Origin: Asaia bogorensis
GTDB taxonomy: Bacteria; Pseudomonadota; Alphaproteobacteria; Acetobacterales; Acetobacteraceae
Reading direction: 5' to 3'
Assembly: GCF_900465345.1 (NCBI RefSeq)
Contig: NZ_UEGO01000012.1
Coordinates: 1 to 64,000, forward strand
Length of the DNA: 64,000 nt
Positions 6,872-16,468 of the stretch are shown here, one piece after another; the first letter of the stretch is position 1; each line of letters opens with the position of its first letter. The notes under the pieces are model-generated. The model did not search any database. It was given only the letters and a program-made list of their open reading frames with translations, and was not told the origin of the DNA. The translations under genes were made by a program, and so were the position numbers.

Positions 6872-7825
6872 CTAGAAGCAAGATTGAACCGACCGATCAG
6901 GAATTCTGATCGACTCCTGTTCAATGGCGCTGAAAACCAGCTGTGCCGCGGGGGAAAGCGGTCGTCCCGGCTGGCTGATGAGCGAGAAGGGCCCGAGGAA
7001 ATCGGGCATGGCAACTGAAAGACGGCGTATGAGCCCGGCTTTTTCGTAATGTTGGCTCACGCTGCAGGGGATGACCGCCAGCAGGCAGGAATGAAGCAAC
7101 AGGTCGATGGTCGCGAACATCGAAGACGCTTCGATGGGATGAGCAGGCAAGGGCAGAAGTGCAGTGGTGAATGCGGCTTCGATCGCCCGTCTCATGGGGC
7201 TTGGTGCCGTCTGGAGAATCCATTTTTCGTTCGCGACGTCCTGCAGTGTCAGGGTGCCGGGGTCGGGCATCGGGTTATGGATGCTGGTCACGACGCATAG
7301 CGGCTCCTGGGCGAGCTCACGGCAATCGAGCGCCATCGGGCCGTGCAAGCCGAGTGCGCGCCCGATAACGAAGTCCAGACGGCCTGTTTCCATACCCAGC
7401 AAAAGCGCATCGCTCGTGTCGATGGTCAGTGAGAGACTGATGCCGGGTTGCGTCTGAGCGATGCGGGCAAAGACGGGCGAAATGATGTCGGGCAGGGCGG
7501 CGACAATCGAGCCCACGCGTACCGTGCCATAGGTCCCTTCCTGCATTGCGTTCATATCGAGCTGAAGACGGTCGATATCATTGAGCATCAGGCGGGCATG
7601 ACGCGCGGCCAAAACGCCGCTTGGGGTGGGAAATACTCCCTGTGACGAGCGCTCGAAAAGACGCGTGTTCAGCGCGTGTTCGACTTCCTGCAGCAGCTTG
7701 GACACCGAAGGCTGGGAGAGATTCATCCGCTCGGCAGCGCGGTGCAGGTTATTGGTCGCCTCAAGTTCCAGAATGAGCCGGAGATGACGCAGCTTGAGAC
7801 GGTTGATGAGAGAATGGGCGGTCAT
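6872..7825 (-). CDS. LysR-family transcriptional regulator
   Basis: A 317-aa LysR-type regulator. The winged helix-turn-helix occupies about residues 10-70 (RHLRLILELEATNNLHRAAE, then QPSVSKLLQEVE). The rest is the two-lobed effector domain. It is co-directional with and 70 nt upstream of the dehydrogenase-like gene, so it may lie at the head of the catabolic run. The expected inducer is a substrate or intermediate of that pathway, an inference from context only. Confidence 0.92.
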   Translation of the reverse strand: MTAHSLINRLKLRHLRLILELEATNNLHRAAERMNLSQPSVSKLLQEVEHALNTRLFERSSQGVFPTPSGVLAARHARLMLNDIDRLQLDMNAMQEGTYGTVRVGSIVAALPDIISPVFARIAQTQPGISLSLTIDTSDALLLGMETGRLDFVIGRALGLHGPMALDCRELAQEPLCVVTSIHNPMPDPGTLTLQDVANEKWILQTAPSPMRRAIEAAFTTALLPLPAHPIEASSMFATIDLLLHSCLLAVIPCSVSQHYEKAGLIRRLSVAMPDFLGPFSLISQPGRPLSPAAQLVFSAIEQESIRIPDRSVQSCF

Positions 7826-10538: not shown

Positions 10539-11114
10539 GTGCTGAGGGCTGAAAACTCCCGCCGCGCCACGCTGCGTGCGCATGTGCATGAGGCGCATGA
10601 GCAACTCGACCACCTTATTGGAGATCTCGCGACAGCGAGGGGCTATCGGCGCTATGTTGCCGGTATTGCCGGTTTCCGCCTCGCTGCCGAAAATGCCCTT
10701 CATGGGCAAACCTACCCCGAATGGTTCGATGGCTGGCGACCTGTCAGCATGCAGCGCAGCCTGAGTGAGGATCTGCGGTGTCTCGGGATCGTTCCGCCCG
10801 AGATGGGGGCGATTGCGGCCCCCGCAACGGATTCTGAACTTCTGGGTATGCTTTATACGCTCGAGGGGTCGGCACTGGGTGGACGGGTTATTGCGCGGCG
10901 CGCTGCGGCCCTTGGCTTCGATGCGGCCTATGGAGCCAGTCATCTGGCCGAACAGACGGCGACGCCAGATAACTGGCGCCGCTTCCTGGTCCTTCTGGAA
11001 AATGCTCCCGAATTTGATGCGGATGAAGCAGGGCGCGCTGCTGCCACCCTGTTCCGTCATGCGCGTGATGCCGTGAGGCTGGTCGATCGCGCCGAGGAAA
11101 AAGTCGATGGCTGA
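10539..11114 (+). CDS. bphO: Biliverdin-producing heme oxygenase (BphO)
   Basis: A 191-aa all-helical protein of the bacterial heme oxygenase family, which opens heme to biliverdin IX-alpha, CO and iron. The N-terminal stretch RAHVHEAHEQLD carries the expected proximal histidine region, and LYTLEGSALGGRVI is the characteristic distal-helix motif with a glycine run. The start is GTG at 10539; no ATG in frame gives a full domain. Its stop overlaps the bacteriophytochrome start by 8 nt, so the chromophore-making enzyme is translationally coupled to the photoreceptor. This coupling is the best evidence for biliverdin supply rather than iron scavenging. Confidence 0.88.
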   Translation: MLRAENSRRATLRAHVHEAHEQLDHLIGDLATARGYRRYVAGIAGFRLAAENALHGQTYPEWFDGWRPVSMQRSLSEDLRCLGIVPPEMGAIAAPATDSELLGMLYTLEGSALGGRVIARRAAALGFDAAYGASHLAEQTATPDNWRRFLVLLENAPEFDADEAGRAAATLFRHARDAVRLVDRAEEKVDG

Positions 11115-13665
11115 GTTTGGTCAGGTCGATCTGACGAGTTGTGATCGCGAACCGATCCACATTCCGGGGAGTATTCAGCCACATGGCTGTCTGATCACCT
11201 GCTCGATCAGTGATTTTATTGTGCTCCGGCACTCGGCCAACGCACCGGCAATGCTGCATCACGAAGGGCTGGGTATCGGGTCTGATCTGATCGCGCTCTT
11301 TGGTGCAGATGTCATTCATGACATTCGTAATGGTCTGACCCTGAGTGTGACTCAGCGTCGCCCTGTTTTCCTGCTCAATCAGGCTTTGGGTCCCGATCTG
11401 TTTTTCGATCTGGCGGTGCATATCGTCAATGGGGAGGTGGTGCTCGAATGCGAGCCAGCCGCGCCGACGCACCGCGCCACGAAGTTTCTCACCCAGCTTC
11501 ACGGCATGATGGATCGTGTACGCAAGACGACCGATATCACGCGGCTGTTCGATGTGGTGACCATGCTCATGCGCGGTCTGCTCGAATATGACCGCGTGAT
11601 GGTCTACCGCTTTGCTGATGACTGGTCTGGCAAGGTCGTCTCGGAGGCGCGGTCGCTTTCACTCGAGAGCTTTCTGGGGCAGCATTTTCCGAGCGCCGAT
11701 ATCCCGGCCCAGGCGCGCGAACTCTATCGCCGTTCGCCCATTCGAATGATTGGGGATGTGAAGTTCGTCCCGGTTCCGCTGGTTGAGGGTGAGGGGCTTT
11801 CACCGCTCGATATGTCCCTGGGGCAGCTTCGCAGCGTTTCACCGATCCATTGCGAATATCTGACCAATATGGGGGTTCGCGCCTCCATGTCGATCTCGAT
11901 CGTCATCGATGGCGCCCTGTGGGGCATGATCGCCTGTCACCATTACGCGCCCCGCGTACTTCCGATTGCCGAGCGCGCCGTCGTGCAGATGTTTGCGGAG
12001 TTCTTTGCGCTTCAGGTTATCGTCATCCTCAAGACCACGCGCCTACAGGTTGCGGAGCGAACGCACGGGCTGATCGAGAGCGTCCTGCGCAATGCCGCCT
12101 CTGTGTCCGATATGCCCGCCTATCTGCGTGGGCAGATCAGTCGACTGGCACCGCTCATCCAGTCGGATGGTATTGCCATCTGGATCGATAATGAATGGAC
12201 AGGACATGGGATCGCCGCGCCTCCCGAGGTGCAGGACCGCTTCGTGGAGCTGGCCCGCACGAAGGCCGGAACGCAGATCTGGCAGTCGGATCATCTGGTC
12301 AAGGATCACCCCTGGATCGCCGCGCATACAGCGCATGTTGCTGGTGTGTTGATCATTCCGATCTCACCCCAGCCGGAAAACTACGTTTTCCTGTTTCGCC
12401 GTGAAATCGTGCAGACCATCAACTGGGGTGGGGATCCGCAGAAGACTTATCAGCATGGGCCACACGGCCCTCGCCTGACGCCGCGCCAGAGTTTCGCGAT
12501 CTGGAAAGAGCAGGTGCATGAGCGCTGCCTTCCCTGGTCCAGCTTCGACATCGAGGCAGCGGCGCAATTGCGCTCGGCCCTGATCCAGGTGATGGGCGTC
12601 TATCATCAGCAGCAGCTTTCCGAGCGGGCTGACGCCGATTTGCGCCAGCGCATGCTAAATGAGGAACTCAACCACCGCGTGAAGAATATTCTGGCGGTTG
12701 TGCAGTCGCTCATCGGTCGCCCTGTGGCCAAAGAGCGCACCATTGAGGAATATGTCGAGATTCTGCGTGGGCGTATAAAGGCGCTTGCGAGTGCGCATGA
12801 TCAGGTTGCGCGCACCGATGGCGGTGGATTGCTGCGCACCCTGCTGGAGGCCGAACTCGAACCCTACCGACATCAGCCCACTGCCGTCATTCTTGAAGGC
12901 CCCAATCTGTGGCTCTCCGGGCCTGCCCTGTCGGTTGCCGCCCTGACATTGCACGAACTGGCAACCAACGCCGCCAAATATGGCGCGCTGTCGGTGCCGA
13001 GCGGCAATCTGCATATCCGCTGGTTCATTGACGAGGCTGAAGGCTGCTGGGTGCTTGAATGGACCGAGACAGGCGGCCCCAAAGTCAATCTGCCCAAAGG
13101 CAACGGGTTTGGCTCCATTTTGCTCGAACGTGCCATCCCGCATGAACTGGGCGGAACGGCAAAGCGGGAGTTCAGACCGGAAGGCCTTTTCATCTGCCTG
13201 ACTTTCCCGGCCCGTCATGCTGTTCTGGTGGCCGAGACAGCGACCGTGCCCGAAACTGAAGGGCCGATTGTGGCCGATACCGCCCAGACGGAGCGTCTGC
13301 ATGCGGCCAATGTGCTTCTGGTCGAGGACCAGCTTTTGATTGCGATGGAAACGGAGCAGGCTCTGAGCACCTATGGTGTGCGTCATATCCGTACCGTCTC
13401 GTCGGTCTATGAGGCATTGCAGGCCATCAAGGACCGCTGCCCGGATATTGCGCTGCTCGATTTCAACCTGGGCAAGGAAAACTCTCACGAAGTGGCAACG
13501 CTTCTGCGCAAGAAGAATGTGCCGTTCATCTTCGCAACAGGCTATGCCGACCGCACGATGATACCGGCTGAATTCAGGGATGTTCCTGTTTTGCGCAAGC
13601 CCTACTCAATCAAGAACGCCGTTCAGGAATTGCTCCGTGTTTTCCCTGAGGGAGGGGACGCCTGA
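11107..13665 (+). CDS. bphP: Bacteriophytochrome with HWE histidine kinase and receiver domain
   Basis: An 852-aa red/far-red photoreceptor. The N-terminal PAS domain carries Cys12 in TSCDREPIHIPGSIQPHG, the biliverdin attachment site. The GAF domain holds the chromophore-pocket motif SADIPAQARELY. The PHY domain has the tongue motif TPRQSFAIWKEQV. An HWE-type kinase follows, with phosphoacceptor His523 in ELNHRVKN and N-box HELATNAAKYG. A C-terminal receiver domain (about residues 735-850) carries phosphoacceptor Asp785 in LLDFNL. All core residues are present, so a working light-regulated kinase with intramolecular phosphotransfer is likely. It is coupled to bphO. The next same-strand genes, 95 nt downstream, form a DNA-repair cassette. 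No DNA-binding output domain is encoded. Confidence 0.95.
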   Translation: MAEFGQVDLTSCDREPIHIPGSIQPHGCLITCSISDFIVLRHSANAPAMLHHEGLGIGSDLIALFGADVIHDIRNGLTLSVTQRRPVFLLNQALGPDLFFDLAVHIVNGEVVLECEPAAPTHRATKFLTQLHGMMDRVRKTTDITRLFDVVTMLMRGLLEYDRVMVYRFADDWSGKVVSEARSLSLESFLGQHFPSADIPAQARELYRRSPIRMIGDVKFVPVPLVEGEGLSPLDMSLGQLRSVSPIHCEYLTNMGVRASMSISIVIDGALWGMIACHHYAPRVLPIAERAVVQMFAEFFALQVIVILKTTRLQVAERTHGLIESVLRNAASVSDMPAYLRGQISRLAPLIQSDGIAIWIDNEWTGHGIAAPPEVQDRFVELARTKAGTQIWQSDHLVKDHPWIAAHTAHVAGVLIIPISPQPENYVFLFRREIVQTINWGGDPQKTYQHGPHGPRLTPRQSFAIWKEQVHERCLPWSSFDIEAAAQLRSALIQVMGVYHQQQLSERADADLRQRMLNEELNHRVKNILAVVQSLIGRPVAKERTIEEYVEILRGRIKALASAHDQVARTDGGGLLRTLLEAELEPYRHQPTAVILEGPNLWLSGPALSVAALTLHELATNAAKYGALSVPSGNLHIRWFIDEAEGCWVLEWTETGGPKVNLPKGNGFGSILLERAIPHELGGTAKREFRPEGLFICLTFPARHAVLVAETATVPETEGPIVADTAQTERLHAANVLLVEDQLLIAMETEQALSTYGVRHIRTVSSVYEALQAIKDRCPDIALLDFNLGKENSHEVATLLRKKNVPFIFATGYADRTMIPAEFRDVPVLRKPYSIKNAVQELLRVFPEGGDA

Positions 13666-13721: not shown

Positions 13722-13736
13722 GTTCTTGACTTGTTC
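13722..13736 (+). promoter_or_regulatory. LexA (SOS) box GTTC-N7-GTTC
   Basis: GTTC TTGACTT GTTC is an exact match to the alphaproteobacterial LexA operator, GTTC-N7-GTTC. It contains TTGACT, which can serve as the -35 element, so LexA binding would block the promoter. It lies 25 nt before the ATG at 13761, so transcription may start very close to the start codon. The genes it precedes are DNA-repair related, which independently supports the call. Confidence 0.8.
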
Positions 13737-13760
13737 CTGCGCGATGCCCATTTCGGGTGT

Positions 13761-14993
13761 ATGAAGAAGACCCTCGCCGCACGTCTGGAAATCCTCTCCG
13801 ATGCCGCCAAATACGATGCGTCCTGCGCATCCAGCGGCGCGCGTTCGAAGAAGAAACCGGGCGAGGAAGGGCTGGGCTCCAAGGCGCCCAACGGGATCTG
13901 TCATGCCTACACGCCCGATGGGCGCTGTATCTCGCTGCTCAAGATCCTGATGACCAATTTCTGCATCTATGACTGCGCTTACTGCATCAATCGCTCATCG
14001 TCGAAAATCGAGCGGACGCGGTTCACAGTCGAGGAGATCATCTGGATTACGCTTGAGTTCTACAGGCGTAACTATATCGAGGGTCTGTTCCTCTCATCGG
14101 GCGTCATCCGCTCCTCCGACTATACGATGGAGGAAATGGTCCGCGTGGCGCGCGAACTGCGTCTGGTCCATCATTTTCACGGCTATATCCACCTCAAGAC
14201 AATCCCCGATGCGGCACCGCACCTCATTGAGGAAGCCGGTCTCTATGCAGATCGCCTTTCCATCAACGTGGAAATGCCGACCGATGCCGGATTGGCGGCT
14301 TATGCGCCTGAGAAGGATGCGGGCCATATCCGGCAGAGCATGGGCGCGCTGCGCCTGCGTATCCAGGAGTCAGGCGACAAGACGCTGAGTGGCCGCAAGC
14401 CAAGACGCTTTGCGCCGGGTGGCCAGAGTACGCAGATGATCATCGGAGCCGATAAATCGACCGATCGCGATATTCTGCGCAGCAGTGCCTCGCTCTATTC
14501 CGGCTATGCGCTGCGTCGCGTCTATTATTCGGCTTTCAGCCCCATCCCCGATGCCTCGCTGGCCTTGCCTGCGCAGTCTCCCCCGCTCCTGCGGGAGCAT
14601 CGCCTGTATCAGGCGGATTGGATGGTTCGGTTCTATGGGTTCTCCTTCGAAGAGATCGTTGCTGAACGGCAGGATGGCATGCTCGATCTGGAGCTTGACC
14701 CAAAGCTCGCCTGGGCTCTGCAAAACCGCGCCCAGTTTCCACTCGATCTGAACCGTGCCAGCCGTGAGATGTTGTTGCGTGTACCCGGCCTTGGTCCGCG
14801 CAGTGTCGGTGCCCTGCTTTCGGCGCGCCGTCATCGGATCATCAGGCTGGAAGATGTGGAGCGTCTGAACGTGTCCCTGCGCAAGATCAAACCCTTTGTG
14901 GTGACAGCAGATTGGTCGCCTGGACGGCTGATCGACAAGGAGAATCTTGCGGCATCGTTCCGCCCGCAGCCGCAGCAATTGAGCTTGCTGTGA
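13761..14993 (+). CDS. Putative DNA modification/repair radical SAM protein
   Basis: A 410-aa radical SAM enzyme. Cys68, Cys72 and Cys75 form the CxxxCxxC cluster motif in CIYDCAYC, which binds the 4Fe-4S cluster that cleaves S-adenosylmethionine. The C-terminal part (about residues 325-385) carries a helix-hairpin-helix (RVPGLGPRSVGALL), a DNA-binding element. This matches the family known as putative DNA modification/repair radical SAM protein; its reaction is unknown. The frame is open from 13731, but ATG 13761 (MKKTLAARLEIL) fits the family N-terminus and leaves the LexA box outside the gene. Its stop overlaps the next gene's GTG start. It is the first gene of an SOS-type cassette. Confidence 0.9.
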   Translation: MKKTLAARLEILSDAAKYDASCASSGARSKKKPGEEGLGSKAPNGICHAYTPDGRCISLLKILMTNFCIYDCAYCINRSSSKIERTRFTVEEIIWITLEFYRRNYIEGLFLSSGVIRSSDYTMEEMVRVARELRLVHHFHGYIHLKTIPDAAPHLIEEAGLYADRLSINVEMPTDAGLAAYAPEKDAGHIRQSMGALRLRIQESGDKTLSGRKPRRFAPGGQSTQMIIGADKSTDRDILRSSASLYSGYALRRVYYSAFSPIPDASLALPAQSPPLLREHRLYQADWMVRFYGFSFEEIVAERQDGMLDLELDPKLAWALQNRAQFPLDLNRASREMLLRVPGLGPRSVGALLSARRHRIIRLEDVERLNVSLRKIKPFVVTADWSPGRLIDKENLAASFRPQPQQLSLL

Positions 14994-16468
14994 AGTCGAT
15001 TTCTCTCCCGGTGGATGCCGGGTTTGAACAGTGGCGCAGCACGGCAAGGGCTGCGCTATCAGAGGGGCTGAGGCCGGACGACATCGAATGGATCAATCCT
15101 GACGCAGACCAGCCGGAGCTGTTTGGGGCCGCCGAGCCGGTTGCTGCTCTGGAGCTGGCCCCTGCCAACCCGGCCTATTCTGGCGCCCATGTCAGCAAGG
15201 CAGGGCTTGCCATGCTTCGTTCGATCCTGCGGTACCGCGATCCAAAGCGTTTCGCCCTTGCCTATCGCCTGCTTTGGCGGCTCCAGACAGAGCCCGCGCT
15301 TCCCGCAATTGCCACAGATCCGGATGTGCGTGAGGCCGCGCGTATGGACCACCAGATCCGTCGCGACGCGCATAAGATGAAGGCGTTCCTGCGTTTTCGG
15401 GAGGATGGCGCAGAAGAGGGTGCGCGTCGGCATTTCGTCGCCTGGTTCGAGCCAGAGCATTACATTCTTGAGACGGTGGCCCCGTTCTTTGCCGAACGCT
15501 TTTCAGACATGGACTGGTTCATTCTAACGCCAATCGGGTCGATCCTTTTCGAGAACGGCAAGGTAGCCATTGAAAGAACGCCGTGCGAGCCGCCGGACCT
15601 GAAAGATGATGTCGAGACATTGTGGCATCGCTATTATCAGTCGATCTTCAACCCTGCGCGCATCAAGACAAAGGCGATGCGTTCGGAAATGCCGACCAAA
15701 TACTGGAAGAACCTCCCTGAGACGCGGCTGATTCCATCAATGCTCGCCAATGCCGAAAACCGTGTGGCAGCTATGGTTGCGTTGCAGAATGATGGAACAG
15801 CCCCCGGTTTTCATGAGCGCCATCAGGCCGAATGGCAGCGTAAGGCGGAGGAGGTCAGGGCAACAGAGGCCGGCCTGACGGGACTTCCGGCGCTGGCGAC
15901 GGCCTTGGAGCGCTGCCAACGCTGCTCATTGTGCCGTCATGCGACACAGGTGGTGCCCGGTATCGGGCCCGAGAACGCATCCCTCATGATGATCGGTGAA
16001 CAGCCGGGCGATCAGGAGGATTTGCAGGGCAAGCCTTTCGTCGGCCCGGCCGGACAGGTTCTTGACCGTGTTCTTGCAACTGTTGGCATCGAGCGTGAGG
16101 ATGTCTGGATGACCAATGCGGTCAAGCACTTCAAATTTGTCTCGAAAGGTCGCCGGCGAATTCACCAGACCCCGGACAGAACCGAAATCGTCGCCTGTTC
16201 GGACTGGCTTCGTCAGGAAATTGCCCTGGTCCAGCCAAAGCTCATCGTCACGCTGGGTGCAACCGCCTTGCAGTCACTGGAGGGGAAGGGTGCGAGGCTG
16301 GGTGCAAGCCGGGGGCATGTGCGCGGCGCCAATGGCCTGCGCCCGCCAAGCCTTGCTACCATCCACCCGTCCTATCTGCTTCGCCTCCCGGACCCGCAGC
16401 GGGCGCGGGAGGAGGAAGAACGGTTCGAGCAGGAACTCGCCATCGCGCGCGACTGGCTCGGTGCGTAG
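14990..16468 (+). CDS. udgX: DUF4130 / UdgX uracil-DNA glycosylase fusion
   Basis: A 492-aa two-part protein. Residues about 1-260 are the domain (DUF4130/TIGR03915) usually encoded beside the radical SAM protein; it includes FRFREDGAEEGARRHFVAWF. Residues about 295-490 are a family 4/5-like uracil-DNA glycosylase of the UdgX type. They show cluster cysteines Cys309, Cys312 and Cys315 near the domain start, motif GEQPGDQ from residue 336, and the UdgX loop RRRIHQTP with His392. In UdgX of mycobacteria the equivalent histidine bonds covalently to the abasic sugar after uracil removal. GTG 14990 overlaps the upstream stop (GTGA); an ATG at 14912 would overlap by 82 nt and is less likely. It probably acts with the radical SAM protein on damaged DNA. 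Confidence 0.9.
   Translation: MKSISLPVDAGFEQWRSTARAALSEGLRPDDIEWINPDADQPELFGAAEPVAALELAPANPAYSGAHVSKAGLAMLRSILRYRDPKRFALAYRLLWRLQTEPALPAIATDPDVREAARMDHQIRRDAHKMKAFLRFREDGAEEGARRHFVAWFEPEHYILETVAPFFAERFSDMDWFILTPIGSILFENGKVAIERTPCEPPDLKDDVETLWHRYYQSIFNPARIKTKAMRSEMPTKYWKNLPETRLIPSMLANAENRVAAMVALQNDGTAPGFHERHQAEWQRKAEEVRATEAGLTGLPALATALERCQRCSLCRHATQVVPGIGPENASLMMIGEQPGDQEDLQGKPFVGPAGQVLDRVLATVGIEREDVWMTNAVKHFKFVSKGRRRIHQTPDRTEIVACSDWLRQEIALVQPKLIVTLGATALQSLEGKGARLGASRGHVRGANGLRPPSLATIHPSYLLRLPDPQRAREEEERFEQELAIARDWLGA

Follow-up and report, generated by a model that had tools for sequence, protein, structure and literature searches.

Related operons and the Asaia locus

A two-gene operon combining COG1573 and COG4277, and described as a putative UDG base excision system, is listed as SOS-regulated in Bacteroidetes, and the 2021 paper listing it cites earlier reports of the same operon in Verrucomicrobia and Alphaproteobacteria (PMC8565304). 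A role as a mutagenesis-related enzyme has been predicted for DUF4130, which was linked there to uracil glycosylases and to radical SAM proteins resembling SplB (PMC3765255). For UdgX the chemistry is described, but the physiological role is largely unknown (PMC10359453).

The Asaia operon analyzed here lies in the window, i.e. the whole 64-kb stretch of DNA under study (Table 1). Like the COG1573-COG4277 operon, it joins a UDG-family gene and a helix-hairpin-helix (HhH)/radical SAM gene under predicted LexA control, whereas the LexA motifs of the two differ. COG4277 is presumably the same family as TIGR03916. The Asaia domains show no difference from the NCBIfam families TIGR03916, TIGR03915 and TIGR03914, which are families without a known reaction. 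Since NCBIfam already names both proteins and the operon type is listed as SOS-regulated (PMC8565304), the operon type and its SOS control are not new in outline, and the original prediction, made from the sequence alone, went too far in calling the pathway undescribed. Its statement that the radical SAM protein has no known reaction agrees with the literature found by our searches, in which none is described. Our main reading, to which we give a probability of roughly 0.6, is that of a conserved LexA-repressed repair operon, in which a core of radical SAM protein and DUF4130 acts on damaged DNA and UdgX is optional.

Table 1. Features of the Asaia operon and its promoter region, with positions in the window.
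Feature	Position	Strand	Basis or content
LexA operator (predicted), GTTCTTGACTTGTTC = GTTC-TTGACTT-GTTC	13722..13736	+	pattern match, spacing-specific conservation
TTGACT hexamer, possible -35 element	13726-13731	+	inside LexA box
Possible -10 region, CCCAT-TC-like	13747..13755	+	footprint alignment of Asaia relatives; -10 role inferred
Radical SAM protein, 410 aa, TIGR03916 (putative DNA modification/repair radical SAM protein)	13761..14993	+	profile match
DUF4130 (TIGR03915)-UdgX (TIGR03914) fusion, 492 aa	14990..16468	+	profile matches
UdgX domain	15728..16444	+	motif A GEQPG (E337, Q338), R-loop RRRIH (H392), motif B HPSYLLR (R465)

The encoded proteins

The product of the first gene matched TIGR03916 with 552.6 bits (curated cut-off 343.5; model positions 2-395 of 415) and the Pfam domain Radical_SAM (PF04055). 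Its closest named orthologue is that of Asaia lannensis, to which it is 95% identical, and the host is accordingly an Asaia-like acetic acid bacterium. The CxxxCxxC motif and C-terminal HhH that had been predicted were both recovered, the former as CIYDCAYC (C68, C72 and C75) and the latter as an HhH-like region at approximately residues 325-371, with weak matches to the ComEA and RuvA HhH profiles (E 0.02-0.2). The cluster motif is invariant in 140 sequences, as are three extra cysteines N-terminal to it, namely C22, C47 and C56. A structural model of the protein had a pLDDT of 86, with low confidence for residues 22-33 and 42-50 (pLDDT below 50 in the region 22-50). The closest solved folds among the top 50 listed were HydE, lipoyl synthase and biotin synthase, tied at a Z of about 16 over 212-226 residues with 10-17% identity. 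Lipoyl synthase holds an auxiliary cluster on three N-terminal cysteines before the SAM motif. Because of this arrangement, a second Fe-S cluster on C22, C47 and C56 is a lead, although the C-x24-C-x8-C spacing seen here differs from that of lipoyl synthase.

Membership among the spore photoproduct lyases (SplB) was rejected, as the protein had no SplB family match and only those to TIGR03916 and the general PF04055. With SplB-like enzymes it has the radical SAM CxxxCxxC motif and the SOS association in common. SplB uses a cysteine located after the cluster motif, whereas the Asaia protein has no cysteine C-terminal to it. SplB was also missing among the top 50 structural matches listed, an absence that is not evidence against SplB likeness.

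Two Asaia-related genomes (loci L014-L017; genomes G001 and G006) have the radical SAM coding sequence broken into two frames that overlap, either by a frameshift or by an assembly error. Homologues with 45-56% identity were also found in ten records filed as phage (e.g. CAKLQH020000003.1 and MT835514.1), among them contigs of fecal phages and a record of 240 kb for an Acinetobacter phage; either phages carry these repair genes or bacterial DNA may have been filed wrongly.

The second gene starts at a GTG (14990) and overlaps the stop codon of the first (TGA, 14991-14993) by 4 nt (GTGA), as originally noted. Pfam assigned DUF4130 and UDG to its product, in which DUF4130 spans residues 86-244 (TIGR03915, 206.3 bits against a cut-off of 112.25) and UdgX residues 247-485 (TIGR03914, 275.5 bits against 189.95). 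Conserved polar and aromatic residues of DUF4130 are H128, R135, W152, E154, N221 and R224. E337, H392 and R465 of the UdgX domain are invariant in 97 fusion proteins and correspond in the alignment to E52, H109 and R184 of Mycobacterium smegmatis UdgX. The model of the domain superimposed on 6ajo with a Z of 31.0 and an rmsd of 1.6 over 198 residues (47% identity), and the structural match list of the whole fusion model was filled by the UDG domain. The fold, motif A (GEQPG), the RRIH of the R-loop and motif B (HPS-LLR) are thereby common to the Asaia domain and the M. smegmatis protein (6ajo, 6ail), the R-loop reading KRRIH in the latter and RRRIH in the former. A further difference is that the M. 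smegmatis chain consists of the UDG domain alone, whereas the Asaia domain is fused to DUF4130 and sits beside a radical SAM gene in a predicted operon. From these residues, Asaia UdgX would be expected to excise uracil and to crosslink covalently to the AP site via H392.

Core and optional parts of the operon

With enough downstream DNA read, each of the 140 loci was found to have DUF4130 next to its radical SAM gene. Two loci taken as lacking it (L078 and L081) were discarded as exceptions, as longer sequence placed DUF4130 further downstream. The UdgX domain, fused in most loci, is absent in about 20 of the 140, and by parsimony its presence and absence involve at least 11 changes on the tree. 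When ten DUF4130-only genomes were searched for a relocated copy, no protein above the UdgX cut-off was found. In the Alphaproteobacteria, DUF4130-only operons whose box could be assigned unambiguously keep the LexA box in 10 out of 10 cases. The radical SAM protein thus has DUF4130 as its invariant partner, and UdgX is an optional module. Consequently, weight moves off the self-trapping glycosylase, which the original prediction had stressed as the key partner without naming DUF4130.

Across the phylum, 53 out of 299 sampled genomes had TIGR03916 above cut-off, and the same gene pair is annotated by NCBI on plasmids. One genus (L002 / L189) has a hemerythrin-like gene separating the radical SAM and DUF4130-UdgX genes. 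Directly upstream of the Asaia operon, at 10539-13665 on the plus strand, are a probable heme oxygenase-like gene and a bacteriophytochrome gene with HWE kinase and receiver domains. A functional tie of these to the operon was rejected; because the adjacency is not kept beyond Asaia and a single close relative, they are probably mere neighbors.

The strict linkage of the radical SAM protein to DUF4130 bears on what the enzyme acts upon, which may be a protein or a small molecule instead of DNA. Most simply, it would modify the DUF4130-UdgX protein, either for maturation or for release of the UdgX-DNA crosslink. Such a linkage would also fit a pair of enzyme and substrate protein, and the near folds among the top 50 listed include LipA, RlmN and the PFL-activating enzyme, with protein, RNA and small molecules as substrates. 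However, binding to nucleic acid is suggested by the HhH-like region at the C-terminus, and since the radical SAM protein stays with DUF4130 where UdgX is absent, crosslink release cannot be its general role. On balance, we find protein modification unlikely.

The explanation offered for the COG1573-COG4277 operon, i.e. base excision of SOS-misincorporated uracil, in which UdgX does the main work and the radical SAM protein and DUF4130 are accessories (PMC8565304), would fit the complete UdgX catalytic motifs in most fused members. It is nevertheless rather improbable, given that the operons without UdgX keep the radical SAM gene, DUF4130 and mostly the LexA box, that their genomes, in the ten searched, offer no UdgX above cut-off elsewhere, and that a crosslinking, single-turnover glycosylase is ill-suited to bulk repair.

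The LexA box and its conservation

The perfect GTTC-N7-GTTC overlapping TTGACT that had been pointed out before the radical SAM gene was found there, with 24 nt between the end of the box and the start codon (ATG, 13761). Approximately 16-17 nt 3' of TTGACT, the alignment of Asaia relatives shows a conserved CCCAT-TC-like element, which as a -10 region would put the transcription start at or adjoining the ATG. In the same relatives the 15-mer box is identical, with flanking promoter DNA that has diverged. Most species have, in place of the box over TTGACT seen in Asaia, a GAAC-N7-GAAC near the start codon, in many cases surrounding a -10 element similar to TATAGT, and the orientation flips about six times on the radical SAM tree. 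Either placement would be expected to block RNA polymerase. At L069, L107 and many other loci, the box and the -10 are very near the start codon, some 50 nt upstream of the codons for the conserved LxDAAKYD, and the mRNA there may be leaderless or nearly so.

The window holds two such boxes against 1.59 expected, a number reached in 46 out of 100 shuffles, and in the whole genome the pattern occurs 100 times, compared with 67 times for its reverse. The second perfect box in the window (7667-7681), situated off the operon, was taken as a chance match at this expected number. The operon box is significant because of its position and conservation, not because of the count in the window. The original prediction had staked itself beforehand on the box being kept before orthologues in related genomes, and 121 out of 124 distinct alphaproteobacterial orthologues, in a sample picked by similarity to the Asaia radical SAM protein and including related species that are not independent, have a perfect GTTC-N7-GTTC in the 200 nt upstream of the gene, counting both strands. 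For the same 124, spacings of 2-6 and 8-13 gave 0-3 matches, as did the reversed motif and control windows elsewhere in the loci.

Outside the Alphaproteobacteria, the direct repeat at spacing 7 was found in none of 17 orthologues. Instead, 12 of these 17 (beta/gamma-type, same phylum) have CTGT-N8-ACAG, with no matches at other spacings. We take this motif to be the E. coli-type LexA box. The operator type follows the lineage while the operon always keeps one, which is as LexA control predicts, and the predicted control would have outlasted a change of LexA operator. That the box arose by chance, with the operon lying outside LexA control, as the 1.59 matches expected per window could suggest, is barely credible in view of the conservation with its spacing and position controls and of the other operator type taking over outside the class. 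By this comparison of upstream regions, LexA control of the operon is strongly supported, in line with the original view of the pair as one damage-inducible operon.

The same motif, GTTC-N7-GTTC, is the SOS operator of Caulobacter (PMC12700426). In the host genome, where 40 out of the 100 genomic box regions were examined to sample the regulon, lexA (178.5 bits) has a perfect box, GTTCTTAATAAGTTC, 58 nt upstream, and another perfect box is found between an ImuA-like gene (71 bits, below the family cut-off of 150) and an SRAP gene; these two boxes are located at L037:2098 (C28) and L026:780 (C18), respectively. A one-mismatch box, GATCATGATATGTTC, lies about 98 nt before the start of recA, and no box was found near the start of uvrA.

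Proposed mechanism

In the LexA-repressed repair operon that we favor, LexA bound to the box over the promoter would keep the operon off, and RecA-driven cleavage of LexA upon DNA damage would turn it on, as the conservation of the box suggests. The radical SAM protein, with its HhH-like C-terminus as a putative DNA-binding region, and DUF4130 would form the functional core, which would act on damaged DNA through 5'-deoxyadenosyl radical chemistry. Where present, UdgX would excise uracil and, judging from its catalytic residues, remain covalently on the abasic site via the R-loop histidine as in M. smegmatis UdgX, thereby anchoring the complex at uracil/AP-type lesions.

A more specific version is tentative, and we would sooner bet against it than for it: the radical SAM protein and DUF4130 would carry out a radical DNA lesion repair unlike that of spore photoproduct lyase, with an auxiliary cluster on the three N-terminal cysteines and with UdgX repeatedly recruited for the capture of uracil/AP-type intermediates.

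Significance

To our knowledge, very few radical SAM DNA repair enzymes are known biochemically. The operon is widespread, no reaction for it appears in the literature that we found, and its predicted LexA control is kept across a change of operator. With DUF4130, and not UdgX, as the fixed partner, the radical SAM protein and DUF4130 are the pair to be taken up first in joint biochemistry.
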